From: Candidatus Melainabacteria bacterium
Lineage (GTDB): Bacteria > Cyanobacteriota > Vampirovibrionia > 2-02-FULL-35-15
Assembly (NCBI GenBank): GCA_016193285.1
Contig: JACPSL010000008.1
Coordinates: forward strand, 62,001 to 126,000
Direction of reading: 5' to 3'
Length of the DNA: 64,000 nucleotides
In this document: positions 1,823 to 14,498 of the stretch, piece by piece
How the letters are laid out: each line of letters begins with the position of its first letter
How positions within the stretch are numbered: the stretch's first letter is position 1
Made by a program: the position numbers and the translations under genes
The notes under the pieces: generated by a model
Seen by the model: only the letters and a program-made list of their open reading frames with translations
The model's database searches: none
What the model was told of the DNA's origin: nothing

Positions 1823-3571
1823 ATGTTGTTAATGATTATGCAATTAGACAAAGTTAAAACCGAAAGATTAAAGACAGACTTTTTAATCATTGGTGCAGGT
1901 GCAGCAGGATGTTTTGCAGCTTATGAAGCTAAAAGGTTAAATCCAAATATTGATGTTTTAATAGTTGAAAAAGCTCATATAGATAGAAGTGGCTGCCTTG
2001 CAGCAGGTATCAATGCAATAAATGCTTACATTACTCCTGGTCAAACACCAGAAACATTTCTTGAATATGTAAAAAAAGACTCAATGGATCTTATAAGAGA
2101 AGATCTTGTTTATAGTATTGCAAAAGAAGTTAATCATGTTGCACAAATTTTAGAAGAATGGGGTTTGCCAATACCAAAAGATGAAAATGGAGAAGTTTAT
2201 GTCCGGGGACGAGGATCAATTATTGTTCAGGGGGAAAGAATAAAACCAATAATTGCACAAGCCACTAAAGCTACAAAAGCAAGGATTTTAAACAGAGTTG
2301 TTGTAACAAACTTAATCATAAACAAAAATAAAACCTGTGGAGCATTTGGTTTTGGAATTAGAGATGGAAAATTTTATGTCCTTCAAGCAAAAGCAGTGCT
2401 GGTAGCTACTGGTGGAGCAAGTGGCATTTATAAACCAAATAATGAAGGGGAATCCAGGCATAAGATTTGGTACTCACCATTTAACACTGGTGCTGGTTAT
2501 GCAATTGGTATTCGTGCAGGCGCTGAAATGACTACTTTTGAAATGCGGTATGTAAGCATGCGAATAAAAGATCTTATGGCACCAACTGGAGCAGTAGCAC
2601 AAGGAGTAAAAGCCCAGCAGGTAAATTCACTGGGTGAAAGATATTTAGAAGGAAGATACAAAAATATTGGCGGTAAATTAATGCCAACTTCTATGCGGCT
2701 CCTAGCAACACTTCAAGAAAATATTGAAGGTCGCGGACCTTGTTATTTAGATACAACTCATCTAACAAAAGAACAAGCAGAAAGATTACAAGCATACTAC
2801 TTACACATGACACCAGGACTAACTTTGTACTGGTCTAGTCGTGGTACAAGACCAGACACTGATCCACCTGAAATTGTTGGAACAGAACCATTTATTGTAG
2901 GTGGTCATGCACAAGCAGGTTACTGGATAAATACAAACAGAATGGCTACAATTGAAAATCTTTATGCTAGTGGTGATGTAGCAGGTGGAGCACCAAAAAA
3001 ATACTTATCAGGTTCAGCAGTAGAAGGAATGATTGCAGCAAGAGATGTTATATCAAAATTAAATAAAATATCACAAGAAGAAATTTATGAAAAAGATGTA
3101 AAGGATGAAATCAAGAGAGTGTTTGCACCTCTGTGTAGAGACGAGGTCACCTCATCTCTACAGCCAGATGAATTAGAATTACGCATGCAAAAAATAATGG
3201 ATGAATATGCTGGTGGTATTTCAAGTGGATATATTTTAAACGAGCAAAAATTATTAAAAGCAAAAAAATATATAAAGCAATTAAAACAAGAAACAAAAAA
3301 TTTATATGCAAGTAAAGACGGGATCACCCCGTCTTTTCACGAGTTAAATAAATGTCATGAAGTTATTGATAGACTTGACATTGCTTCTGTGCTTATTGAA
3401 CATCTCTTATACAGAAAAGAAACCAGATGGCCAATTTATCAAAGCCGGGCTGATTATCCAAATCGAGATGATAAAAATTGGTTAAAGTTTGTAAACTCTG
3501 TATATGATCAAGCAAGGGATGAAATTAAAATTCTTGAGAGACCATGTAAAACATTAGAACGAGTTAAGTAA
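1823..3571 (+). CDS. aprA: AprA-like adenylylsulfate reductase alpha subunit
   Basis: A flavoprotein of the fumarate reductase/AprA family; AprA interconverts APS with sulfite plus AMP using FAD. An N-terminal FAD-binding Rossmann motif (LIIGAGAAGC, about residues 21-30) is followed by stretches that match what I remember of AprA: GERIKPIIAQATK, FNTGAGYAIGIRAGAEMTTFEMR, and a late GGHAQAGYW segment holding the conserved active-site His. The pairing with an AprB-like ferredoxin (ATG overlapping this gene's TAA) supports Apr over succinate dehydrogenase or L-aspartate oxidase. Two short palindromes lie in frame near residues 437 and 497 and add SSL- and ITPSF-like segments. The start is uncertain: ATGs at 1823, 1832 and 1838 are all possible and an AAGGAG lies at 1795-1800. 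Direction (oxidative or reductive) cannot be told from sequence. Confidence 0.78.
   Translation: MLLMIMQLDKVKTERLKTDFLIIGAGAAGCFAAYEAKRLNPNIDVLIVEKAHIDRSGCLAAGINAINAYITPGQTPETFLEYVKKDSMDLIREDLVYSIAKEVNHVAQILEEWGLPIPKDENGEVYVRGRGSIIVQGERIKPIIAQATKATKARILNRVVVTNLIINKNKTCGAFGFGIRDGKFYVLQAKAVLVATGGASGIYKPNNEGESRHKIWYSPFNTGAGYAIGIRAGAEMTTFEMRYVSMRIKDLMAPTGAVAQGVKAQQVNSLGERYLEGRYKNIGGKLMPTSMRLLATLQENIEGRGPCYLDTTHLTKEQAERLQAYYLHMTPGLTLYWSSRGTRPDTDPPEIVGTEPFIVGGHAQAGYWINTNRMATIENLYASGDVAGGAPKKYLSGSAVEGMIAARDVISKLNKISQEEIYEKDVKDEIKRVFAPLCRDEVTSSLQPDELELRMQKIMDEYAGGISSGYILNEQKLLKAKKYIKQLKQETKNLYASKDGITPSFHELNKCHEVIDRLDIASVLIEHLLYRKETRWPIYQSRADYPNRDDKNWLKFVNSVYDQARDEIKILERPCKTLERVK
3134..3162. repeat. 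Palindromic GTAG/CTAC repeat inside aprA
   Basis: Two 14-base arms (TGTAGAGACGAGGT and its complement with one mismatch) surround a single base. The element is inside the reading frame and translates without a stop. It belongs to the window-wide GTAGRGRCG family. Confidence 0.8.
3314..3336. repeat. Short palindromic repeat inside aprA
   Basis: Nine-base arms AAAGACGGG and CCCGTCTTT surround ATCAC. It looks like a degenerate member of the same family, lies in frame, and is the second such element in this gene. Confidence 0.65.
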
Positions 3572-3999
3572 TGGGGATATTTATTGATCACAATTTATGT
3601 AATGGCTGTGGATATCCAGAATCAGAGACTCCATGTAATATTGCCTGTCCAGGAGATTTAATTTTTATGCAAACAAATAGCAAGGCACAAATTTTTTCAA
3701 ATGCTGACTGCTGGGATTGTGCAGCATGTATAAAAATATGTCCACAACAAGCAATTGAACTTAAACTTCCATTTGAAATTGTTGGGAAAGAAGGTTCACT
3801 TAAAGCAAGAGCTTACAGAGATAAAACTATATGGACAGCAAAAGATGAAAATGGAGGCGAACAAATTTTTGAAACGCCAGCTAGGAATAGTAGAGGCGAG
3901 GCAACCTCGCCTCTACTATCACCTGATGAATTTACTGATTGCATTGATTCATATAAAGGTATTTCAAAAACATTTGTTGATTTAGGATCTGATATTTAA
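3571..3999 (+). CDS. aprB: AprB-like ferredoxin subunit
   Basis: A 142-residue iron-sulphur protein, the expected electron-transfer partner of AprA. Two cysteine clusters suited to two [4Fe-4S] centres are visible: CNGCGYPESETPCNIACP (about residues 11-28) and CWDCAACIKICP (about 50-61). The tail around 'KTIWTAKDENGG' matches the AprB-type segment that wraps around AprA (IMWTVKFRNG in memory). ATG overlaps the aprA stop by one base (TAATG), and its own TAA overlaps the next ATG in the same way, so the three genes are probably one operon. A near-perfect 33-base palindrome is embedded near residue 105, outside the cluster-binding part. AprB assignment is good; a generic ferredoxin beside another FAD reductase is the alternative. 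Confidence 0.78.
   Translation: MGIFIDHNLCNGCGYPESETPCNIACPGDLIFMQTNSKAQIFSNADCWDCAACIKICPQQAIELKLPFEIVGKEGSLKARAYRDKTIWTAKDENGGEQIFETPARNSRGEATSPLLSPDEFTDCIDSYKGISKTFVDLGSDI
3887..3919. repeat. Palindromic repeat inside aprB
   Basis: Perfect 15-base arms starting ATAGTAGAGGCGAGG surround CAA. It is inside the aprB frame and has the same GTAGRGGCG ends as the other elements. Confidence 0.85.
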
Positions 4000-5085: not shown

Positions 5086-5131
5086 AATTTTATTCTTGAC
5101 ATGTTTTAATGTTCAGAACAATTCAAGAAAT

Positions 5132-5650
5132 ATGTCACATTTAATACCACCTGAAAGAATTGAAAATAAAATATTTCTCATAAAAGGGAAGAGAGTAATG
5201 CTCGATAGAGATCTTGCTGAACTTTATGGAGTTTCTACAAAACGATTAAATGAACAGGTAAAAAGAAACAAAGACCGTTTTCCCGAAGATTTTATGTTTC
5301 AACTAACAAGGGAAGAAGCTTACATTTCAAGGTCGCAAATTGCGACCTTGAAACATGGGCAAAATATCAAGTACCCTCCTTCTGCATTTACAGAACAAGG
5401 TGTGGCTATGCTTTCAAGTGTTTTAAACAGTAAAAGAGCAATTCAAGTAAATATCCAGATCATGAGAACTTTTACAAGGTTAAAAGAAATTATTGCAGGA
5501 AACAAAGAGCTTGCACAAAAACTTACTCGGCTTGAAAAAAGAATTGATAACCAGGATGAAGAAATTAAATCAATTTTTGATGCAATTCATAAACTTATTA
5601 ATCCAACATTTGATAGACCTAAAAGAAAAATAGGATTTCAAGTACAATAA
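5132..5650 (+). CDS. ORF6N-domain DNA-binding protein
   Basis: A 172-residue protein of the ORF6N/KilA-N type found in phages and mobile elements. The N-terminal ORF6N domain is visible from about residue 8 (IENKIFLIKGKRVMLDRDLAELYGV) through FMFQLTREE and the conserved YPPSAFTEQGVAMLS. A coiled-coil tail follows (EIIAGNKELAQKLTRLEKR). The ATG at 5132 is preferred to an upstream TTG at 5096, which reads TTGACA and looks more like a -35 box. It is probably a transcriptional regulator of mobile origin; no toxin or phage gene is adjacent. A 29-base near-perfect palindrome sits in its coding sequence. Confidence 0.85.
   Translation: MSHLIPPERIENKIFLIKGKRVMLDRDLAELYGVSTKRLNEQVKRNKDRFPEDFMFQLTREEAYISRSQIATLKHGQNIKYPPSAFTEQGVAMLSSVLNSKRAIQVNIQIMRTFTRLKEIIAGNKELAQKLTRLEKRIDNQDEEIKSIFDAIHKLINPTFDRPKRKIGFQVQ
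5325..5353. repeat. 14-base-arm palindrome inside the ORF6N gene
   Basis: Arms TTTCAAGGTCGCAA and TTGCGACCTTGAAA surround one base and encode the family-conserved 'SRSQIATLK' region. Its sequence differs from the GTAG/CTAC family. It may be chance, an internal operator, or a diverged repeat. Confidence 0.6.
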
Positions 5651-5652
5651 AT

Positions 5653-5799
5653 CTAAAACTCTGCAATTATTCCAAAACAAGCAATTAAAATTAGCCAAAA
5701 GAAAAGATGTAAATAAAAAAATACATTATGAAAAAATATTTTTATAGGTGAAACATTTGAAATATTCATTATTATTTTTGCGTCTTTAATTGTTGCCAT
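5653..5799 (-). CDS. Predicted 48-aa single-pass membrane peptide
   Basis: A short ORF read as MATIKDAKIIMNISNVSPIK followed by one hydrophobic helix (LFFWLILIACFGIIA). The GGAGGA at the end of the upstream MvhD-like gene lies about 11 bases before its ATG, so the last two codons of that gene can serve as its ribosome binding site. It would be the last gene of the respiratory operon and could be an accessory subunit of the membrane complex. Function unknown. Confidence 0.5.
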   Translation of the reverse strand: MATIKDAKIIMNISNVSPIKIFFHNVFFYLHLFFWLILIACFGIIAEF

Positions 5800-5806
5800 T
5801 TATGTT

Positions 5807-6196
5807 TTATCCTCCTAAATCTTCTTCAAACTTATTTACCTTCTCTATAAATTTTTTGTAATCACACTTTGCAAGCCAGAAACCACGAACTTTATTTTTA
5901 TCAATTGTTTTTTTAATATTTGGCGGGCGGAGTCCAAGTAATCTTTCTTGACACCATTTATTTCCTTCTCTAAAATGACAATCCCCTATCTGACAGCCCA
6001 TTACAAATACTCCTTCAGCACCTTGCTTAAAGGCTTCTTCTATCATTTGTGGCTGAATCATCCCAGAACAAATCATTTCAAGAATTGCAATGTTTTCTTT
6101 TTCTTTTAATTTGTTATTTTTAGTGTGGTTTTTTAGATCTGCACTACGTTCACAAACAATGCCCAATATTTTTTTCTTTTTGTTTTGTTCAGCCAT
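5807..6196 (-). CDS. MvhD/FrhD-like iron-sulphur electron-transfer protein
   Basis: A 129-residue protein of the methyl-viologen-reducing hydrogenase delta family, which carries a [2Fe-2S] centre and usually links HdrA-type modules to an electron donor. The family hallmark ICSGMIQPQMIEEAFKQGAEGV is followed by GCQIGDCHF. The N-terminal CxxC of canonical MvhD is reduced to a single Cys (IVCERSADL), while additional Cys occur at WCQERL and AKCDYKK, so cluster binding may differ. The start overlaps the end of the cytochrome b-ferredoxin gene by 8 bases. No hdrA, hydrogenase or formate dehydrogenase gene is in the window, so its partner is probably the fused ferredoxin; QmoB and HdrA-linked MvhD domains are the nearest known precedents. 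Confidence 0.75.
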   Translation of the reverse strand: MAEQNKKKKILGIVCERSADLKNHTKNNKLKEKENIAILEMICSGMIQPQMIEEAFKQGAEGVFVMGCQIGDCHFREGNKWCQERLLGLRPPNIKKTIDKNKVRGFWLAKCDYKKFIEKVNKFEEDLGG

Positions 6197-7307
6197 TTAA
6201 TACATCCCCTATCTTTCCAAGAATTTCTTTAGATTGTTTTTGTGGCAGTTCAATTGCCTTAAAAGCACATGCTCCAACACAAAGCCCACATTCTGCACAC
6301 CGAGCATCAATTACAATTGCCAGTTGTTTAAACTTTGGATGGTCTGTTCTTGGCACCATATAAATTGCTTCATATGGACAGTCTTTTGCACAAAGAGTAC
6401 AACCAACACAATTATCTTGTAAAACCTGAGCTGGTGATTTTTCTTTATCTACTATTAAAAATGGAACTAATAGTAAAATTACAATTGCTATAAATAAAAT
6501 TATCCAAACAGTCATTGCTGGCATACTTGAAAATAAAGGGAAAATCCAAAGATAAAACCAGTCTATCGGAAATTCACTAGGAGTCTGTGTTAAAACTGCT
6601 GGTCTTCCACTAATAGCTTGTAACATCCCTGCTGGAATAATAATTAGTGCTATAAGTAACATACCAAGACCTAGGGGGACATTTGTAACTGGTCTTGAAA
6701 TTCTAAGATAGTGTAACCAAAGCAAGTACAAAAGAAAAAATGAAACGCCAACATGTAAGAAAAATGACATTGCTAGTGTGTAATGTGTAACCATCTCACC
6801 ATTTACAAAAAACTTTGCAAGATGAATTCCAACAAGTGGTATTGATTTCAAAGCATTAGTTAGTACTAAAACAATCATGTAAGATCTTTCATCCCAAACA
6901 AGAACATAGCCAGTAATGCCAATGACTAACATGCAAACTAAAAGCACAATACCTGAATACCATGCTATCCAGCGATATTTTCTATACCTGTCTGTAAAAT
7001 AAACTCTAAGTGCATGCAATATAACTGTAATTATCATTGCATCTGCAGCATATCTGTGCATACCACGAACAATATTTCCAAAAGGTACTTTACCTGAAAT
7101 ATAGTTTACTGAAATATATGCACTGTCTAATGTAGGCTGGAAATAAACAAAAAGCAAAAGTCCAGTAATAAACAAAGTCCACATAAATAAATTTGGTAGT
7201 GCACCATGATAGTAAAGTGGATTGTACTTTTGACTAAAAACCTTGTTTAGCCACTTTTCAAGATTTATTGTTAGTATTTGTAATTTTTCTAATGTTTTTT
7301 TATACAT
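6189..7307 (-). CDS. Cytochrome b with C-terminal 2x[4Fe-4S] ferredoxin domain
   Basis: A 372-residue cytochrome b6-like membrane protein. All four expected haem ligands are present with 14-residue spacing: His84/His98 (GMHRYAADAMIITVILHALR) and His185/His199 (FLHVGVSFFLLYLLWLHYLR). Further membrane helices end near residue 285. The C-terminus carries two ferredoxin motifs, CVGCTLCAKDCP and CAECGLCVGACA, separated by about 30 residues. It overlaps the upstream 69-aa gene by 19 bases and the downstream MvhD-like gene by 8. The fusion suggests that soluble electrons (ferredoxin/MvhD) are passed to haem b and quinone, or the reverse. The domain reading is secure; the reaction is inference. Confidence 0.85.
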   Translation of the reverse strand: MYKKTLEKLQILTINLEKWLNKVFSQKYNPLYYHGALPNLFMWTLFITGLLLFVYFQPTLDSAYISVNYISGKVPFGNIVRGMHRYAADAMIITVILHALRVYFTDRYRKYRWIAWYSGIVLLVCMLVIGITGYVLVWDERSYMIVLVLTNALKSIPLVGIHLAKFFVNGEMVTHYTLAMSFFLHVGVSFFLLYLLWLHYLRISRPVTNVPLGLGMLLIALIIIPAGMLQAISGRPAVLTQTPSEFPIDWFYLWIFPLFSSMPAMTVWIILFIAIVILLLVPFLIVDKEKSPAQVLQDNCVGCTLCAKDCPYEAIYMVPRTDHPKFKQLAIVIDARCAECGLCVGACAFKAIELPQKQSKEILGKIGDVLNG

Positions 7308-7498
7308 TTTGTTTCTTCATTATCCTCACCTCTAGTTAAAAGCAAAAATGAAATTGCACTAAAAGCAATAAACAAACCAAAATATTTTGCAAAAGTTAAA
7401 TCTAAAGAATTTAACTCAGCACTTATAAGCAAGAAAAGAAACATAGCTGTAACAACAATAGTTACAAAGCCAAAAACAAGTTTAAAAACAGGTGTCAT
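7289..7498 (-). CDS. Small two-helix membrane protein of the cyt b operon
   Basis: A 69-residue protein with two predicted membrane helices (about residues 5-27 and 36-55) and a short charged tail (TRGEDNEETKCIKKH). It is wedged between the two cytochrome b genes, sharing ATGA with the upstream one and overlapping the downstream one by 19 bases, so translation is probably coupled. The position suggests a small structural subunit joining the two cytochromes b. I know no family for it. Confidence 0.7.
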   Translation of the reverse strand: MTPVFKLVFGFVTIVVTAMFLFLLISAELNSLDLTFAKYFGLFIAFSAISFLLLTRGEDNEETKCIKKH

Positions 7499-8823
7499 TT
7501 AGTTACTTTTATCTCCCCACTAACAATTTTCTTTCTAATAAACAAATGCCAAGTATAAGCAATAACAGTTGGAATCATACAAATACTTACACCGATAAGC
7601 TGCTGCTTTAAAGTAATCCAACCATTTAACAAGGTAGGAAATGACCAATATAAAACAAACAAAGGACAAGCAACATATGCAATAAAGTCACAAATTGCAA
7701 CAGGTAATTTTTCTGGTCTTTCAATTTTATGATTAATATATTGCCACATAACACCAATTGCAATTAATATCCAGGTACCTATTCTCCAAATCGGCGGGTC
7801 TCTATAAATATTTGCAACATTAAAAATAATTAAAAATGAAAATATTAAAAATTCCAAGAAACCCATTATAGTAACCATTAAAAATATTGGTCTTTTAAAA
7901 AGTCTTGTTTCAGGTCCAAGATCAAAATAAGGAAGGATAATTACAGTAATTGGAACAAGCACTGTAAGAGCAGTTGCCCAAACAGGTTCCATATATTTTA
8001 AAAACTGATAAAGTGCTAAAAAGTACCAGTCAGAAAGAATTGGGAGTGGTGTAATACTAGGATCAGCTCTATGTCCAATTTGGGCAGGAAGAATAATAGC
8101 AGTTATACATACCATTGCAATTGGAAGACATGCAAGCTTCCAGGAAATATTTAATCTCTTATGTCCCATTTTATAGATGTAAAGTTCGTAAGCAATTAAA
8201 GCAAGCAAGGTAAAAGCAATATGAAATGCATAAAATCTTGTCATTGTTGCTTGACCAATTGAGCTGCCACCTAAAAGAATTTGTGATGTGTTGGCACCAA
8301 TATGAGTTGGTCCTAGTATATAAAACTGTTCTACATAAGTTGGAAAAGTTGCAAAAACTTTTGTTGCCCAAAATGCTCTTTGATTCCAAATTAAAAGGTA
8401 GCCTGTTAATCCTGAGTACATACCAAAAAGCAAAGTAATTAAAGCAATTGCTATATTGAATTCACGGTTTGGTTTATAGTCACAAGCAATAAACATCCGA
8501 TAAAGCCTCATAGTAGCTGCAATAATCAATGCATCAGTTCCATATTTATGTACGCCTCTAATAATTGAACCAAAAGGAATTTGTGTTTGTATTTTTACAA
8601 TTGAATCATAAGCCTCAGCAATAGATGGAATATAAATTGCCATTAGTAAACAACCAGATACAATTGTTACCATCCAAAAAAGCCATACAAGCGAGCCAAG
8701 TGTATACCAAGGATTTGTTTTTGCTTTATCAATATAGTGTTCATCAAAAATATCAATGCCATTAATGTGATCGATAACCCACTTTCTTGAAATTTCAAAA
8801 TATTGTTTTACTTTTTCTAACAT
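7495..8823 (-). CDS. Cytochrome b lacking the predicted haem bH ligands
   Basis: A 442-residue cytochrome b/b6-type protein with the N-terminal haem domain and a C-terminal subunit-IV-like part containing SDWYF where PEWY normally stands (quinol-oxidation site). Aligned to the sister cytochrome b at 6189-7307, His92 and His201 are retained. The partner ligands 14 residues on are replaced by Arg106 (IIAATMRLYRMF) and Tyr215 (LIAYELYIYKMG). In known cyt b, these two positions ligate the same haem (bH), so one whole haem seems to have been lost coherently. It follows a Rieske gene by 34 bases and overlaps the next gene by ATGA. The extended C-terminus (about residues 330-442) adds further helices. 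Confidence 0.85.
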   Translation of the reverse strand: MLEKVKQYFEISRKWVIDHINGIDIFDEHYIDKAKTNPWYTLGSLVWLFWMVTIVSGCLLMAIYIPSIAEAYDSIVKIQTQIPFGSIIRGVHKYGTDALIIAATMRLYRMFIACDYKPNREFNIAIALITLLFGMYSGLTGYLLIWNQRAFWATKVFATFPTYVEQFYILGPTHIGANTSQILLGGSSIGQATMTRFYAFHIAFTLLALIAYELYIYKMGHKRLNISWKLACLPIAMVCITAIILPAQIGHRADPSITPLPILSDWYFLALYQFLKYMEPVWATALTVLVPITVIILPYFDLGPETRLFKRPIFLMVTIMGFLEFLIFSFLIIFNVANIYRDPPIWRIGTWILIAIGVMWQYINHKIERPEKLPVAICDFIAYVACPLFVLYWSFPTLLNGWITLKQQLIGVSICMIPTVIAYTWHLFIRKKIVSGEIKVTK

Positions 8824-8836
8824 TCTATTTCATTCC

Positions 8837-8857
8837 CAATTTTCAATTTTCAATTCC
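8837..8857. repeat. CAATTTT heptamer repeat
   Basis: Three tandem heptamers (CAATTTT, CAATTTT, CAATTCC) fill the gap between the Rieske stop and the cytochrome b start. This places a repeat where a ribosome binding site would be expected. Confidence 0.6.
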
Positions 8858-9424
8858 CTACGCAATTCCTCCTGTTTCCAGATCAGTTATAACTAACTGA
8901 TTATTTTCAATCTTATAAGTAAATTTTCTTGGTGGTCTTGGTGCAGGACCTGAAACAACTTTTCCTTCTTTTTGGATATCAAAAACACTTAAGTGACATG
9001 GGCATGCAAAAACAGGCCCATCTGGTCTAAAGTTATATCCTTTAGCAACCTCATCAGGATCTGGAACATAGTTAAAAACACAACCAAGATGTGGACATAT
9101 TCTGCTGTAAACTGCAAACTCACCATTTGGAAGTCTTACAGCAAATCCAGGAATATCTCTTATCTGAGTACCTAATGCTGTGTACTCTTTATTTACTTGA
9201 GTAAAGTTAAAAGATTGTACATCAAAAGGTTTTGGAAATAATGAAAGATCAAACACTACAGGTTTTAAAGATTCTGGTAGATCGGGCCCTTGCATATAGT
9301 TAAGTGGTTTAATAGTTGGTTTTAAAAATCTCATAAAAGGAGAAAGTGCTGCAAATAAAGTACCTAAAACAGGTACTGCCAACATCACTTTTAATAATTC
9401 ACGTCTTGTTGTTTCTGTGTTCAT
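8858..9424 (-). CDS. Rieske [2Fe-2S] protein
   Basis: A 188-residue Rieske subunit of a quinol:cytochrome c/plastocyanin oxidoreductase. The N-terminus has a twin-arginine-like TTRRELLK before one hydrophobic anchor (VMLAVPVLGTLFAALSPF). The cluster motifs are CPHLGC (two of the ligands) and CPCH in the C-terminal third, giving the usual two Cys and two His plus a disulphide pair. It ends in FTYKIENNQLVITDLETGG, typical of the family's closing strands. It lies between a dihaem cytochrome c and cytochrome b, in the order of a bc/b6f-like operon. Function as the high-potential branch is well supported. Confidence 0.93.
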   Translation of the reverse strand: MNTETTRRELLKVMLAVPVLGTLFAALSPFMRFLKPTIKPLNYMQGPDLPESLKPVVFDLSLFPKPFDVQSFNFTQVNKEYTALGTQIRDIPGFAVRLPNGEFAVYSRICPHLGCVFNYVPDPDEVAKGYNFRPDGPVFACPCHLSVFDIQKEGKVVSGPAPRPPRKFTYKIENNQLVITDLETGGIA

Positions 9425-9430
9425 CTTATA

Positions 9431-10201
9431 TTATTTTTTCTCTTTTCCATTAAATAATTTCTCTTGTCTTAAAATATCTACTTCTGTAGAATAACCAAAA
9501 TGTCTTACATACTTGACAAGCTCCCATCTAAATTTTTCATCAAAGGTAAAATGTTTGTCTTTATCAATTCTATTTGCCCATGGTGGCATTGCAGTCCATG
9601 GAATACCATTTGATATTCTTTCAAATAAATGCTCATCAGTTTTCTCATAAAACTTGTCAAACTGATTAAAGTTAGCAGGTGGAGGATTTAAGTAATAATG
9701 CAGTGGTCCATCTGCAAATCCTCGTGTTCCATGACACACACCACAGTTAGAAGCAAATTTTATTCTTGTATCTTCAAAATCTTTTGGCATTCCAAAAAGC
9801 TCATAGCGCAAATACATTACAATATCCCATCTCTCTATCTTGGTAAGCTTATCTTTAAATGAGGGATGTTTACTATTACTAGTTATTACTTTAAATAATG
9901 TAGATGGAGTAACACTATTCACATACTTCAAAGTAAAATTATGTTTCCTTTTTTCGTATCTAAAACCATGACACTGAGAGCAATTCTGAGCAAACAATTT
10001 TTTACCTTCAACTACAGATGGATCTTTTGTAGGATATGCAAAATCTTCTTTTGCTGCTTCTTTGCTAATTAATGGTTTTTGCTCAGAAGGTAAACTAATG
10101 TTTTTTAATTGAAAATTGGACTGACAAGCGGTTAAAAATAATCCAATCGAAAAAACAAATAAAACCAGTATTATTGTTTTTATATTTTTTCTACTCCCCA
10201 T
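9431..10201 (-). CDS. Dihaem c-type cytochrome lipoprotein
   Basis: A 256-residue exported cytochrome with a lipobox-like signal (FSIGLFLTACQS, lipid Cys near residue 26). Two haem-c motifs are present: CSQCH near residue 73 and CGVCH near residue 153, each followed by an axial Met candidate region (for example TAMPPWANR). In position it would replace cytochrome c1/f as electron acceptor from the Rieske protein and could hand electrons to the adjacent cbb3-type oxidase. It is separated from the Rieske start by 6 bases. The fold resembles two fused mono-haem domains rather than a cyt c1. Confidence 0.88.
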   Translation of the reverse strand: MGSRKNIKTIILVLFVFSIGLFLTACQSNFQLKNISLPSEQKPLISKEAAKEDFAYPTKDPSVVEGKKLFAQNCSQCHGFRYEKRKHNFTLKYVNSVTPSTLFKVITSNSKHPSFKDKLTKIERWDIVMYLRYELFGMPKDFEDTRIKFASNCGVCHGTRGFADGPLHYYLNPPPANFNQFDKFYEKTDEHLFERISNGIPWTAMPPWANRIDKDKHFTFDEKFRWELVKYVRHFGYSTEVDILRQEKLFNGKEKK

Positions 10202-10249: not shown

Positions 10250-10417
10250 TTAATAACCAAAAAACGGTACCCAAGAAATTAATGCCCATATAAAAACTAA
10301 AATAAAAAGTACTATTAAAAAAACTGGTGGTTTATGTTCGCCCATGCGGTACTCTTCTGGTTTTGTAATTTTTGGTACCTGACAAAGCGGCTTATATTCT
10401 GTAATTTGTTCATCCAT
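10250..10417 (-). CDS. Small membrane protein of the cbb3 operon
   Basis: A 55-residue protein (ATG at 10417, MDEQITEYKPLCQVPKITKP) with one C-terminal helix (PPVFLIVLFILVFIWALISWVPFFGY). An in-frame upstream start at 10450 is less likely because it lies well inside ccoQ. It overlaps the ccoQ-like gene by 8 bases. In size and position it is like the single-helix anchor part of CcoP left after the haem domain moved to CcoO; this is inference. Confidence 0.65.
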   Translation of the reverse strand: MDEQITEYKPLCQVPKITKPEEYRMGEHKPPVFLIVLFILVFIWALISWVPFFGY

Positions 10418-10607
10418 TGCTGTGAGTCTCCTTATCGTTAAACATATCAAACTTACTTTTTTCGAGATCTTTTAACTGTCCAGATGTTAATGCCCAAATA
10501 AAAAATATTAATGCAATAAAAAAAGTTATAAAACAAAACCATGCAAACATCCCTAGTCCTGGCTGTGCAATTAAGTCATGAATTATTTCTTGTACTGTTA
10601 CATTCAT
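10410..10607 (-). CDS. ccoQ: CcoQ/FixQ-like oxidase subunit
   Basis: A 65-residue single-helix protein (GMFAWFCFITFFIALIFFIWAL) with a charged cytoplasmic tail, lying directly after ccoO in a cbb3 operon. Size, topology and place match CcoQ, which stabilises the oxidase; sequence identity in this family is always low, so the symbol rests mainly on context. Confidence 0.65.
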   Translation of the reverse strand: MNVTVQEIIHDLIAQPGLGMFAWFCFITFFIALIFFIWALTSGQLKDLEKSKFDMFNDKETHSNG

Positions 10608-10625: not shown

Positions 10626-11555
10626 CTAATGCCCTTCTCTTAAAATCATTGCAGGTTTTTGAGAATTTAATTCTGCTTCTGAAATTTTATTTTGGCGGAC
10701 CCATTTTTCCGAATCTAAATCCTCATATGATTTTGGATATACTTCATTTTCTCTTGGAAGTATCTTTAAAAATGCAACCAGATACCATCTTTGTTCTTCA
10801 GTAAGTAACTTGCCCCACTGTGGCATTCTAGTTCCTGGCACACCTTCAGTAATTCTCCAAAACCAAGTTATGTCGTCATAATCCTTGTAAAATGGTCTTG
10901 AGAAATTTGCTGGTTTCTTTGAAAGTGCAATTGCATTTGGACCATTACCTAAACCATGAGTACCATGACAAGTCGCGCAATTTTGTTGAAAAATTCCTCT
11001 CCCTGCATTACTAGCTGCAGAACTATTAACATCCATCTTTCTTTTTTCTAAAACTTTTTCCAGCTCATCAGGATGATAAATTCTTTTGTATTTTACAATC
11101 CTTTTTTTTCCTAAAGATTGGATATAAGCAACAAGAGCTTTCATCTCATCATCTTTCAAGTAATTAAACGGTGGCATAACAGAACCAGGTGTAGTACTTC
11201 TTGGACCTTTAAAATGTGCAATATGCCATGCATCAGGATGTTTTCCACCTTCGTTGGATAAATCAGGACCAGTTCGAATTGTACCTAAAAGATTGGGAGT
11301 GTCATAAACATAATCGCCAGCTAAAACTAAAGGTCCAAAGTCTCTATCTTGAGGTCTTACAAATTGACTATGACAATTTACACAACCTTCTCTTATATAA
11401 ATTTTTCTACCTTGTTCTTCTAATGAAGTCCTAACAAATGCAAACTCAGAAGGTGCTGGTCTAAAAATAAAATTTGGCAATAAAACAGTAGCAAAAATAA
11501 TTCCACTGAATGAAAGCAAGAGAACAATTGCTGGAAGTACGTAATTTTTGTTCAT
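10626..11555 (-). CDS. ccoO: Fused CcoO-CcoP-type dihaem subunit of cbb3 oxidase
   Basis: A 309-residue membrane-anchored cytochrome c of the cbb3 oxidase. After one N-terminal helix (VLPAIVLLLSFSGIIFATVLL), the CcoO signature CVNCHSQFVRP (near residue 58) and the RTGPDLSNEGG and MPPFNYL stretches identify FixO/CcoO. A second cytochrome c domain follows with CATCH (near residue 193) and a typical RMPQWGKLL Met ligand. The second domain fits a CcoP module, so the usual two subunits appear fused. Lying after ccoN and before ccoQ, it should carry electrons to the haem b/b3-CuB centre. Confidence 0.88.
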   Translation of the reverse strand: MNKNYVLPAIVLLLSFSGIIFATVLLPNFIFRPAPSEFAFVRTSLEEQGRKIYIREGCVNCHSQFVRPQDRDFGPLVLAGDYVYDTPNLLGTIRTGPDLSNEGGKHPDAWHIAHFKGPRSTTPGSVMPPFNYLKDDEMKALVAYIQSLGKKRIVKYKRIYHPDELEKVLEKRKMDVNSSAASNAGRGIFQQNCATCHGTHGLGNGPNAIALSKKPANFSRPFYKDYDDITWFWRITEGVPGTRMPQWGKLLTEEQRWYLVAFLKILPRENEVYPKSYEDLDSEKWVRQNKISEAELNSQKPAMILREGH

Positions 11556-11619: not shown

Positions 11620-12999
11620 CTATTTTGCTGGCACCATTGCAGGCTCTACATCCTCGGCATCAAGTGGTTTTACTTCTCTTACAGTTTGAATAACATTTAA
11701 CAAAAGCAAAATATTTCCAAACCACATTAAGCTTCCACCAATTGCTCTAAATATCCAATATGGAACCATTTCAAGTCCCCATGTACTAATTGGCATTTGT
11801 GCATGCCATCCTGCTGCTTGAACTAATCCACCAATTGTAAATGCACTAAAGAAAATAAAAAATCCAATTAATGTAAACCAGTAATGTGCTCTTGCTAAAC
11901 TAACACTATACATTTGTTTATTTAATACTCTTGGTAATATGTAATAAATTGCACCAAAATTAAAAAATGAAAATGTCCCAAGAAGTGCAACATGAGCATG
12001 TCCTGGAACCCACTGTGAAAAATGAAGGTACCAGTTAATAGATCTAGTTGCTTGAAATGGCCCTTGAATACAAGTAACAAGGTAAAAGAATGCACCAGTT
12101 AAAACAAATCTTAATGGCAAATTATTTGCAAGCTGCCACCAGTTTCCTTTCATTGTCATAAAGAAATTTGTAAGGACAGTAACAACAGGAATAACAAGCG
12201 CTATGCTAAAAACTACTGCAAGTGCTTTTAACCATTCTGGAACTGGGGCTTGCAAAATGTGATGTGTCCCTGTAGGTGCATAGAAAAAAGCAATAGTCCA
12301 AAATCCAAGCATTGAAAGGCTATGACTCCAAAGTGGACAGCCACTAAGTTTTGGAATCATATAATAAGCAATTCCAACTCCAAGTGTTGTAAACCACATT
12401 CCAAGAATATTATGGCCGTAAAACCAATTTACAATTCCATCATTTAATCCTTCAAGCCTTATAAATGTTCTATTTCCAATAAAATAAACAAGCGGCATCC
12501 AAAAAAATGTACCTAAGATGTACCACATACTTACATACAATTTTTTTACAGTTCGTGTCATTGTAGTCATATAAACAATATATGAAAGTGTAAGCAAACC
12601 AACTAAAACTATTACATCAATGGGAACTGGAAACTCAGCATATTCACGCCCTTCAGTGTATCCATTAGTTATACAAATAATGCCACCCCAAATCGCAAGG
12701 TTCCAAACAAGACAAATAAAATTTGCAAGTTTTTCACTAAATAATTTTGATCTTGTAAGAGTCGGAACTATATAAAGAATAATTCCAATGTTTGCCATAC
12801 TTAGCCAACCAAATGCAACAGTGTTTACATGTGCTGGTCTTAGTCTTGAAAAAGTAATTTGTGGAATTCCAGAACTTATATCTGGAGCAGTAAATTCTAT
12901 AGCCCCAATTAAGCCCATTGTCATTCCAACAACTAACCAAAAGACTGCACTAACAATAAAATTTCTACTTGCTGAATTTTCTTTATCTGAGAAAAACAT
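11620..12999 (-). CDS. ccoN: cbb3-type cytochrome c oxidase subunit I
   Basis: A 459-residue haem-copper oxidase with about 12 membrane helices. The haem b ligands are in RPAHVNTVAFGW and WVPGHAHVALLG; the CuB ligands are in FYGHNILGMWF and the HH pair of TGTHHILQAPVPEW; the catalytic Tyr of the cbb3 type is expected in VGIAYYMIPK. This marks a high-affinity, microaerobic terminal oxidase. It is the first gene of the long respiratory cluster; the 220 bases upstream contain no other gene and probably its promoter. No fixGHIS/ccoGHIS assembly genes are in the window. Confidence 0.95.
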   Translation of the reverse strand: MFFSDKENSASRNFIVSAVFWLVVGMTMGLIGAIEFTAPDISSGIPQITFSRLRPAHVNTVAFGWLSMANIGIILYIVPTLTRSKLFSEKLANFICLVWNLAIWGGIICITNGYTEGREYAEFPVPIDVIVLVGLLTLSYIVYMTTMTRTVKKLYVSMWYILGTFFWMPLVYFIGNRTFIRLEGLNDGIVNWFYGHNILGMWFTTLGVGIAYYMIPKLSGCPLWSHSLSMLGFWTIAFFYAPTGTHHILQAPVPEWLKALAVVFSIALVIPVVTVLTNFFMTMKGNWWQLANNLPLRFVLTGAFFYLVTCIQGPFQATRSINWYLHFSQWVPGHAHVALLGTFSFFNFGAIYYILPRVLNKQMYSVSLARAHYWFTLIGFFIFFSAFTIGGLVQAAGWHAQMPISTWGLEMVPYWIFRAIGGSLMWFGNILLLLNVIQTVREVKPLDAEDVEPAMVPAK

Positions 13000-13220: not shown

Positions 13221-14498
13221 ATGAATAAAACAAAAGCACCTGTACAAGCAGAAGATCTTTTAAAAATCATTAATCCTAAATTTACAAACATTGAAGATTC
13301 TTATCTAAGCACTAGCAGTTACTACCTAAGAGAAACTTGGCGAAACACCCCTCGTAATTGGGGACATCCAATGCATGGCATGGCATCTAGGTCTGGTTCT
13401 TTTCCACCGGCATTGGCAGATTATTTTATAAGTAATTTTTCAAATGTTGGTGATTTAGTTTTAGATCCTTATTCAGGCAAAGGTACTGCTCCATACCAAG
13501 CATGTTTGTTAGATCGTGCTGGATTTGGAGTAGATGTAACACCTGAAGCATATGTTTTAACAGGAGCAAAAATAAATCTTATAAAACATGAAGAAGCAGT
13601 AGATTATTTAAAATCAATAAGATTTGGTGTGTCTGAAACAAACATTAGAGATATACCTCAAGATGTAAAAGTTTTCTTTTCAACTAAAACACTTGCTCAA
13701 ATTCTTGTAATAAAAGAAAAACTTTTAGAAGATTTCAATCTTGATACAAGTAAGATTGACTATTCAAATGGTGTTGTCTTTCATGAAGCTAAAACAAAAA
13801 AAGAACAATGTGCACAATATTGGCTTGGAGTATTAATTGGTATTTTACATGGTTCATCAAGTTATAGTTTAAGCTTGCCTTGTTCTCATTCATTTTCAAT
13901 GGCACCTACTTACACAAAAAACTATGCAAGAAAACATAATTTAAAAAAACCTGATAAAAATGTAATTCATTGTATGATTGAAAGATCTTTTTATCTTCAG
14001 AGTGCAGGTATTGCTTGTGTTTCAGGGAAAGCATTCCTTGGAAAAGCTCAGGAACTCCCGGATAGCTGGGAAGAAAAGTTTGATCTTATTGTTACTTCTC
14101 CTCCATATTTTACAGCTCAAAGTTATCCATGGGATAACTGGCTTCGTGAGTGGCTTTTAGGTTTTGACTTTAAAGAAGTAAGAAAACAAGTAACTCAAAC
14201 TGCAAGCTATGAGAAATATTCTCTTGCAATGTATCAGTTTTTAAGAGAAGCTTATAGAGTTCTTAAAAGAGGCCAAAGAGCATTTGTAGTAGTAGGCGAT
14301 GTGACTAAAAAATCCACTAGTGGGAAATTTATTATTAAGACAAGTAATATAATTGCTCATGAAGCAAAAAGAGTTGGTTTTGAAGTGGATTTAATTATTA
14401 ACGATGACATTCCACCTACAAGCAGATATAATTCATCCTTTTTAAAAACGAATCAAGGATTACAAATAGATAGAATTGTTTGTTTAAGGAAGAATTAA
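13221..14498 (+). CDS. Orphan DNA (N4-cytosine/N6-adenine) methyltransferase
   Basis: A 425-residue SAM-dependent amino-methyltransferase. Motif I is DPYSGKGT (about residue 82) and the catalytic motif IV is TSPPY (about residue 291), with a roughly 200-residue segment between that may recognise DNA. This motif order matches the alpha class. The C-terminal LREAYRVLKRGQRAFVVVGD is the usual motif V-VI strand. No restriction endonuclease or specificity gene lies beside it, so it could be regulatory or a remnant of a restriction system. A short decaying open frame just upstream may be a gene remnant. The ATG at 13221 lies one base after GAGG, an unusually tight spacing. Confidence 0.82.
   Translation: MNKTKAPVQAEDLLKIINPKFTNIEDSYLSTSSYYLRETWRNTPRNWGHPMHGMASRSGSFPPALADYFISNFSNVGDLVLDPYSGKGTAPYQACLLDRAGFGVDVTPEAYVLTGAKINLIKHEEAVDYLKSIRFGVSETNIRDIPQDVKVFFSTKTLAQILVIKEKLLEDFNLDTSKIDYSNGVVFHEAKTKKEQCAQYWLGVLIGILHGSSSYSLSLPCSHSFSMAPTYTKNYARKHNLKKPDKNVIHCMIERSFYLQSAGIACVSGKAFLGKAQELPDSWEEKFDLIVTSPPYFTAQSYPWDNWLREWLLGFDFKEVRKQVTQTASYEKYSLAMYQFLREAYRVLKRGQRAFVVVGDVTKKSTSGKFIIKTSNIIAHEAKRVGFEVDLIINDDIPPTSRYNSSFLKTNQGLQIDRIVCLRKN

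Follow-up and report, generated by a model that had tools for sequence, protein, structure and literature searches.

A conserved Vampirovibrionia operon with two unequal cytochromes b, a fused ferredoxin domain and an MvhD-like protein: a candidate asymmetric respiratory complex

The window analysed here, a stretch of 64,000 nucleotides, belongs to a genome of the Caenarcanales (1.81 Mb, 96% complete) in the non-photosynthetic class Vampirovibrionia/Melainabacteria. Eleven tightly packed open reading frames run on its minus strand from 12999 to 5653, cbb3 oxidase genes first, in the 5' to 3' order ccoN, ccoO, p65, p66, dihaem cytochrome c, Rieske, b1, p69, b2-ferredoxin, MvhD, p48; aprA and aprB are convergent neighbours of this operon.

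11620..12999, minus strand: ccoN, cbb3-type oxidase subunit I, first in the unit (NCBIfam ccoN, E 1.4e-79, under the curated cut-off; position kept in 51/52 testable loci)
10626..11555, minus strand: ccoO with a fused C-terminal cytochrome c domain and two CXXCH motifs (Pfam FixO and Cytochrom_C; two CXXCH in 60/61 relatives)
10410..10607, minus strand: p65, small membrane protein, weakly FixS-like (Pfam FixS, E 8e-5, slightly under cut-off; position conserved)
10250..10450, minus strand: p66, small membrane protein, 5' end uncertain because the frame overlaps p65 (position conserved)
9431..10201, minus strand: dihaem cytochrome c (two CXXCH in 62/63 relatives)
8858..9424, minus strand: Rieske [2Fe-2S] protein (Pfam Rieske; cluster Cys/His ligands in 68/68)
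7495..8823, minus strand: cytochrome b1 (Pfam Cytochrome_B; ligand alignment; bc1-type fold)
7289..7498, minus strand: p69, small membrane protein in the b1/b2 interval (homologues in 7/7 family loci fetched)
6189..7307, minus strand: cytochrome b2 (helices A-F) with a fused 2x[4Fe-4S] ferredoxin domain, Cys 300-347 (Pfam Cytochrome_B and two 4Fe-4S motifs; bc1-type fold)
5807..6196, minus strand: MvhD/FlpD-like protein, presumed [2Fe-2S], with four invariant Cys (Pfam FlpD, 4.6e-25; Cys in 73/73)
5653..5799, minus strand: p48, small membrane peptide, last in the unit (position conserved)
1823..3999, plus strand: aprA and aprB (AprA 783 bits, cut-off 557; AprB E 1.5e-16, under cut-off)

Two further plus-strand genes flank the unit: an ORF6N-domain protein at 5096-5650, in the stretch from the end of the operon towards aprAB, which is not a conserved neighbour in the family, and an N6/N4 DNA methylase at 13221-14498, a neighbour of ccoN that is conserved in six loci of the family.

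An initial annotation had described the range 5653-9424. Its six reading frames are all present there on the minus strand, overlapping (by 4 bases for p69/b1, 19 for b2-ferredoxin/p69 and 8 for MvhD/b2) or shortly spaced (7 bases between MvhD and p48), and Pfam agrees with its assignment of a Rieske protein, two Cytochrome_B proteins, two 4Fe-4S motifs and an FlpD/MvhD protein, the last being the sole FlpD of the genome. The content of that range was right but its extent was too small, as the unit extends another 3.6 kb upstream to the beginning of the cbb3 oxidase genes at 12999. The dihaem cytochrome c is the probable acceptor linking the Rieske protein to this oxidase. Chance or a frame artefact is ruled out as the source of the arrangement by the conservation of order and ligands across dozens of loci and genomes.

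Strong b2 matches (E below 1e-100) occur in about two-thirds of 60 relatives' genomes, and whole families in that search, such as f5 and f6, have none; 292 genomes drawn from the phylum gave only 4 matches, each in the window's own family. Scanning 84,980 species genomes yielded 79 loci, among them three in Acidobacteria-type metagenome-assembled genomes (L120, L121 and L124), one in Vampirovibrio chlorellavorus NCIMB 11383 (L104) and one in Obscuribacter phosphatis (L084). A search for the same gene order had been proposed at the outset, with cytochrome b genes that are always apart named as the counter-evidence. Instead, in loci whose length permits a judgement, b1 immediately precedes b2 (68/68), MvhD immediately follows b2 (71/72) and the complete order of ten genes is kept (51/52), counts that are not independent because the loci L033-L052 and L053-L131 share genomes and most come from one class; the order supports a single conserved transcription unit. 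Twenty fetched loci likewise have a common gene order as far as their contigs extend. In relatives the b1/b2 interval holds two small membrane genes, the extra one, of about 90 residues, sitting between b1 and p69; one search of the window's genome, a weak negative, did not find it. Viral contigs gave no relatives of the complex. The Vampirovibrionia, non-photosynthetic relatives of cyanobacteria, possess a strongly conserved gene set for a candidate asymmetric respiratory complex.

The asymmetry lies in the haem ligands, read by comparison with cytochrome b6. In b1 the bL pair (H92/H201) is kept in 70/70 proteins and the bH ligands are lost in 70/70, with Arg or Lys at the helix-B site (R106 in the window) and a helix D without His. 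Since this loss is common to all 70, Acidobacteria-type loci included, it is an old, fixed trait and not decay. The emptied bH region contains an invariant Glu213, which possibly pairs with Arg/Lys106. The Qo motif of b1, TP(L/N)PILSDWY, is invariant (TPLPILSDWY in the window), with SDWY in place of PEWY. Conversely, 90/90 b2 proteins retain the complete set of four His, H84/H185 for bL and H98/H199 for bH. At the level of ligands, the initial annotation's description of one haem-deficient and one four-His cytochrome b is thus borne out; its further claim, that the second cytochrome replaces the lost bH branch, fits the complementary ligands. The Qo motif of b2 is degenerate and variable, yet Asp249 is nearly invariant (acid position: 73/74, 3/3 and 13/13), which makes a p-side quinone site on b2 possible; the operon contains no second Rieske protein to pair with it. 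An extra His34 marks 77/77 operon-type b2 proteins and 0/13 of the fused forms described below. The eight ferredoxin Cys of b2 are near-invariant, with only one or two rows truncated or altered. After CPCHxS, the window's Rieske protein has Phe at a position that is Tyr in 55/68. The Cys35 (haem cn) site is Thr in the window's b1 and Tyr in its b2, and no aligned relative has Cys there. No single protein combines a four-His cytochrome b with a Rieske-linked Qo site, b1 being without bH and b2 having a degenerate Qo motif. For this reason, and for want of the haem cn Cys, we regard the operon as a Rieske/cytochrome b variant, not a strict bc1 or b6f.

Both cytochromes are of bc1 type, as their predicted folds have Foldseek matches to bc1/b6 cytochrome b; fold and ligand spacing rule out a NarI/HdrE-type cytochrome. 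In a cytochrome b of the bc1 fold, helix D leads from the bL side over to the bH side and helix E leads back; the ef loop, which bears the Qo motif, is outside, and helix F finishes inside. With the ef loop outside, helix F ending inside and the first ferredoxin Cys about 16 residues past that helix, the fold would place the ferredoxin domain of b2 on the inner face beside bH; the models themselves are of monomers, built from 18-sequence alignments, with a mean pLDDT of 63-64 and the ferredoxin domain below 50. The two cytochromes are 25% identical. A 180-column tree with small outgroup sampling puts b1 in one clade (support 100) and b2 with its fused forms in another (100), joins the two (99), and separates this group from b6 and from the genome's other cytochrome b; whether the fused form falls inside or outside the b2 clade is supported at 47 only. 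In Obscuribacterales-type loci (L046-L048, L050 and others), b1 is longer at its C-terminus by about 150-200 residues, which match no Pfam family.

Thirteen Deltaproteobacteria-type loci (L164, L165, L166 and L169-L178; 3 from the 84,980-genome scan and 10 found by searching 247 genomes from that phylum) encode cytochrome b2, ferredoxin and MvhD as one polypeptide of about 500-700 residues. This fusion bears out the view that MvhD belongs with b2-ferredoxin and means that MvhD very probably docks on b2. The fused loci have neither b1 nor Rieske; the fused gene follows COX2, COX1 and SCO1 in several of them and is often beside a haem-copper oxidase, which shows that the b2 module is separable and repeatedly tied to such oxidases, and that b2 can function in the absence of both b1 and Rieske. 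A conserved protein of 175-220 residues and unknown family often lies alongside, some fused forms have an additional C-terminal domain (about 690 residues in total), and two loci are near rubrerythrin-like genes.

Which partner might exchange electrons with such an arm? The HdrA/Qmo-type flavoprotein core is absent from the genome, where only the HdrA2 ferredoxin/MvhD parts and a weak flavin fragment matched, and the operon has no FAD/NAD(P) reductase gene. With one FlpD and no HdrA core, we rejected the idea of a remnant of a hydrogenase or Hdr system. The aprAB neighbours are a candidate cytoplasmic electron donor in the window's family only: aprA is present in 9/11 genomes of that family and 0/50 relatives outside it, and one family genome (G006) has neither aprA nor the operon. 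DsrA was not found in the genome, the HdrA/Qmo core is missing and ATP sulfurylase is present, so sulfite oxidation via AprAB is possible on gene content. The complex also occurs in families without aprAB, and the adjacency could be chance linkage within one family. Two PF02621 (futalosine menaquinone) proteins make menaquinone the likely quinone. The same genome carries a second Rieske system (L163, G000:C36:50000-68000) with narG, narH, narJ, a NarI-Rieske fusion of 427 residues, a PEWY cytochrome b and a c-type cytochrome; it looks like a hybrid of nitrate reductase and bc complex.

The operon shares parts with several known systems. Like bc1 and b6f, it has a Rieske protein with all ligands, a bc1-type cytochrome b fold and a Qo-like motif, and its best sequence matches are to cytochrome b6; in contrast to them, its haem-ligand set and Qo site are split over two proteins, Cys35 is missing and SDWY replaces PEWY. 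The anammox complexes Kuste4569-4574 and Kustd1480-1485 also have a Rieske/cytochrome b core, cytoplasmic iron-sulfur clusters able to exchange electrons with the n-side haem and a proposed unusual second branch, but they combine a four-helix b6-like cytochrome b and subunit IV with an FAD/NAD(P) reductase module and multihaem cytochromes (PMC12954380), whereas the operon has two unequal cytochromes b, one without bH, a ferredoxin fusion, MvhD in place of a flavoprotein, and a co-operonic cbb3 oxidase. The b2 ferredoxin domain and MvhD match consecutive C-terminal parts of HdrA2/QmoB-type modules (HdrA2 profile 567-640 and 644-768), with a bc-type cytochrome b standing in place of the absent HdrA flavin core. 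ExtP, a b-type cytochrome of a selenite/tellurite operon, is the best NCBIfam match of both b1 and b2, far under the curated cut-off and with a model that spans the cytochrome b part only. A comparable ligand logic is found in the cross-inactivated bc1 fusions of the Osyczka group, in which complementary inactivated segments are connected solely through bL-bL transfer (PMC4330944); those are laboratory constructs, whereas the pattern here is natural, fixed in 70/70 and accompanied by an iron-sulfur arm.

The initial annotation knew of no such complex as described. Our search of the non-subscription literature found no description of the split design of second cytochrome b, ferredoxin and MvhD, but related systems are published. 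PMC6349859 reports Melainabacterial complex III/IV clusters (Obscuribacter, HO7A and BJ4A) in which a C-family oxygen reductase adjoins petB and petC; it calls them b6f-like, and Obscuribacter phosphatis carries the operon type described here. A Rieske/cytochrome b complex that bifurcates electrons into cytoplasmic iron-sulfur clusters is proposed for anammox bacteria (PMC12954380). Earlier genome papers list complexes I-IV (PMC4040986, PMC4451040), and the accessible sections of these two and of PMC6349859 are silent on MvhD, on a ferredoxin fusion, on a second cytochrome b and on any loss of bH ligands.

What might such a division between two cytochromes achieve? We tentatively propose, with a belief just short of even, that the operon encodes a natural, obligatory heterodimeric bc complex with the Qo site and the bH/Qi side on separate cytochromes b, joined by a bL-bL bridge only, and a ferredoxin/MvhD arm at bH for exchange among cytoplasm, menaquinone and the O2-linked chain. 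In it, b1 and Rieske would form the sole full Qo site, from which the first electron would pass via Rieske and the dihaem cytochrome c to the cbb3 oxidase. As b1 would have no bH haem, the second electron would have to exit through its bL, most simply to b2, which gene linkage and complementary ligands point to as its partner; it would cross the dimer bridge from b1 bL to b2 bL and continue to b2 bH. Engineered cross-inactivated bc1 performs bL-bL transfer on the catalytic time scale (PMC4330944). On the inner face, b2 bH would abut the fused 2x[4Fe-4S] domain and MvhD, leading to a cytoplasmic redox partner. Somewhat more hesitantly, we picture the whole as an asymmetric menaquinol:O2 unit, a b1-b2 pair with an iron-sulfur relay feeding electrons in: the relay would most likely run inward, one Q-cycle electron and one cytoplasmic electron reducing menaquinone on the n side of b2. 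Such a unit would resemble, in hard-wired form, the cyclic route that ferredoxin is proposed to drive through cytochrome b6f, and in Caenarcanales its donor may be APS reductase oxidising sulfite.

The ligand pattern and an n-side iron-sulfur domain would fit equally well if the current ran the other way, in a quinol-bifurcating complex in which the Rieske/cbb3/O2 branch drives the low-potential electron from bL to bL to bH and on through the ferredoxin domain and MvhD to a soluble acceptor. Anammox bacteria offer a precedent, with a bP/bN electron proposed to enter cytoplasmic iron-sulfur clusters and FAD, making NAD(P)H (PMC12954380). We consider this unlikely for the operon, which has no FAD/NAD(P) module, in a genome without an HdrA-like bifurcating flavoprotein; the standalone b2 module, moreover, has no Rieske to bifurcate against. 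By our estimate, reduction of ferredoxin from quinol would be steep with a menaquinone-type Rieske protein and an opposing membrane potential, leaving little drive. Entry from the cytoplasm thus seems likelier than a bifurcating output, given the likely menaquinone, the missing HdrA core, the adjacent AprAB in a genome with ATP sulfurylase but no DsrA, and the standalone b2 beside oxygen-reductase-type genes; the Phe for Tyr in the window's Rieske protein points weakly the same way. The exit of low-potential electrons suggested by the initial annotation is not established.

The standalone fused proteins beside COX2-COX1-SCO genes, without b1 or Rieske, and the deep divergence of b1 from b2 into separate clades instead suit two enzymes sharing one operon and one quinone pool: a homodimeric b1/Rieske enzyme without a Q cycle, and a b2-ferredoxin-MvhD menaquinone reductase fed by a cytoplasmic iron-sulfur donor. 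The two cytochromes could indeed form separate homodimers; but b1 would then have no outlet for its low-potential Qo electron, despite an invariant Qo motif and bL ligands, and the two genes are never apart in operon-type loci, and we judge this arrangement rather improbable. A split Q cycle has all its parts without needing the arm, so the b2-ferredoxin-MvhD arm might serve only for regulation or as a safety valve (sensing redox state or draining electrons) in a quinol oxidase that is ordinary in other respects and reduces menaquinone at b2 by the Q cycle alone. That the ferredoxin domain and MvhD keep their cluster ligands almost without exception argues instead for an obligatory electron path, and so does the retention of the arm where b1 and Rieske are absent; a regulatory or safety-valve role is very improbable.

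It is a long-standing dispute, addressed experimentally with engineered, cross-inactivated dimers, whether electrons pass between the halves of bc complexes when these turn over normally; so far, such bL-bL crossing has been studied only in engineered enzymes. If the heterodimeric b1-b2 complex proposed here is real, a natural complex with bL-bL crossing as its only outlet would answer the question of half-to-half transfer directly. In photosynthetic cyanobacteria, it has yet to be established which protein mediates ferredoxin-dependent cyclic electron flow (PMC10931702). The Vampirovibrionia operon, if its arm works as proposed, would provide a hard-wired link from cytoplasmic iron-sulfur carriers to a bc complex in the sister lineage of those cyanobacteria.
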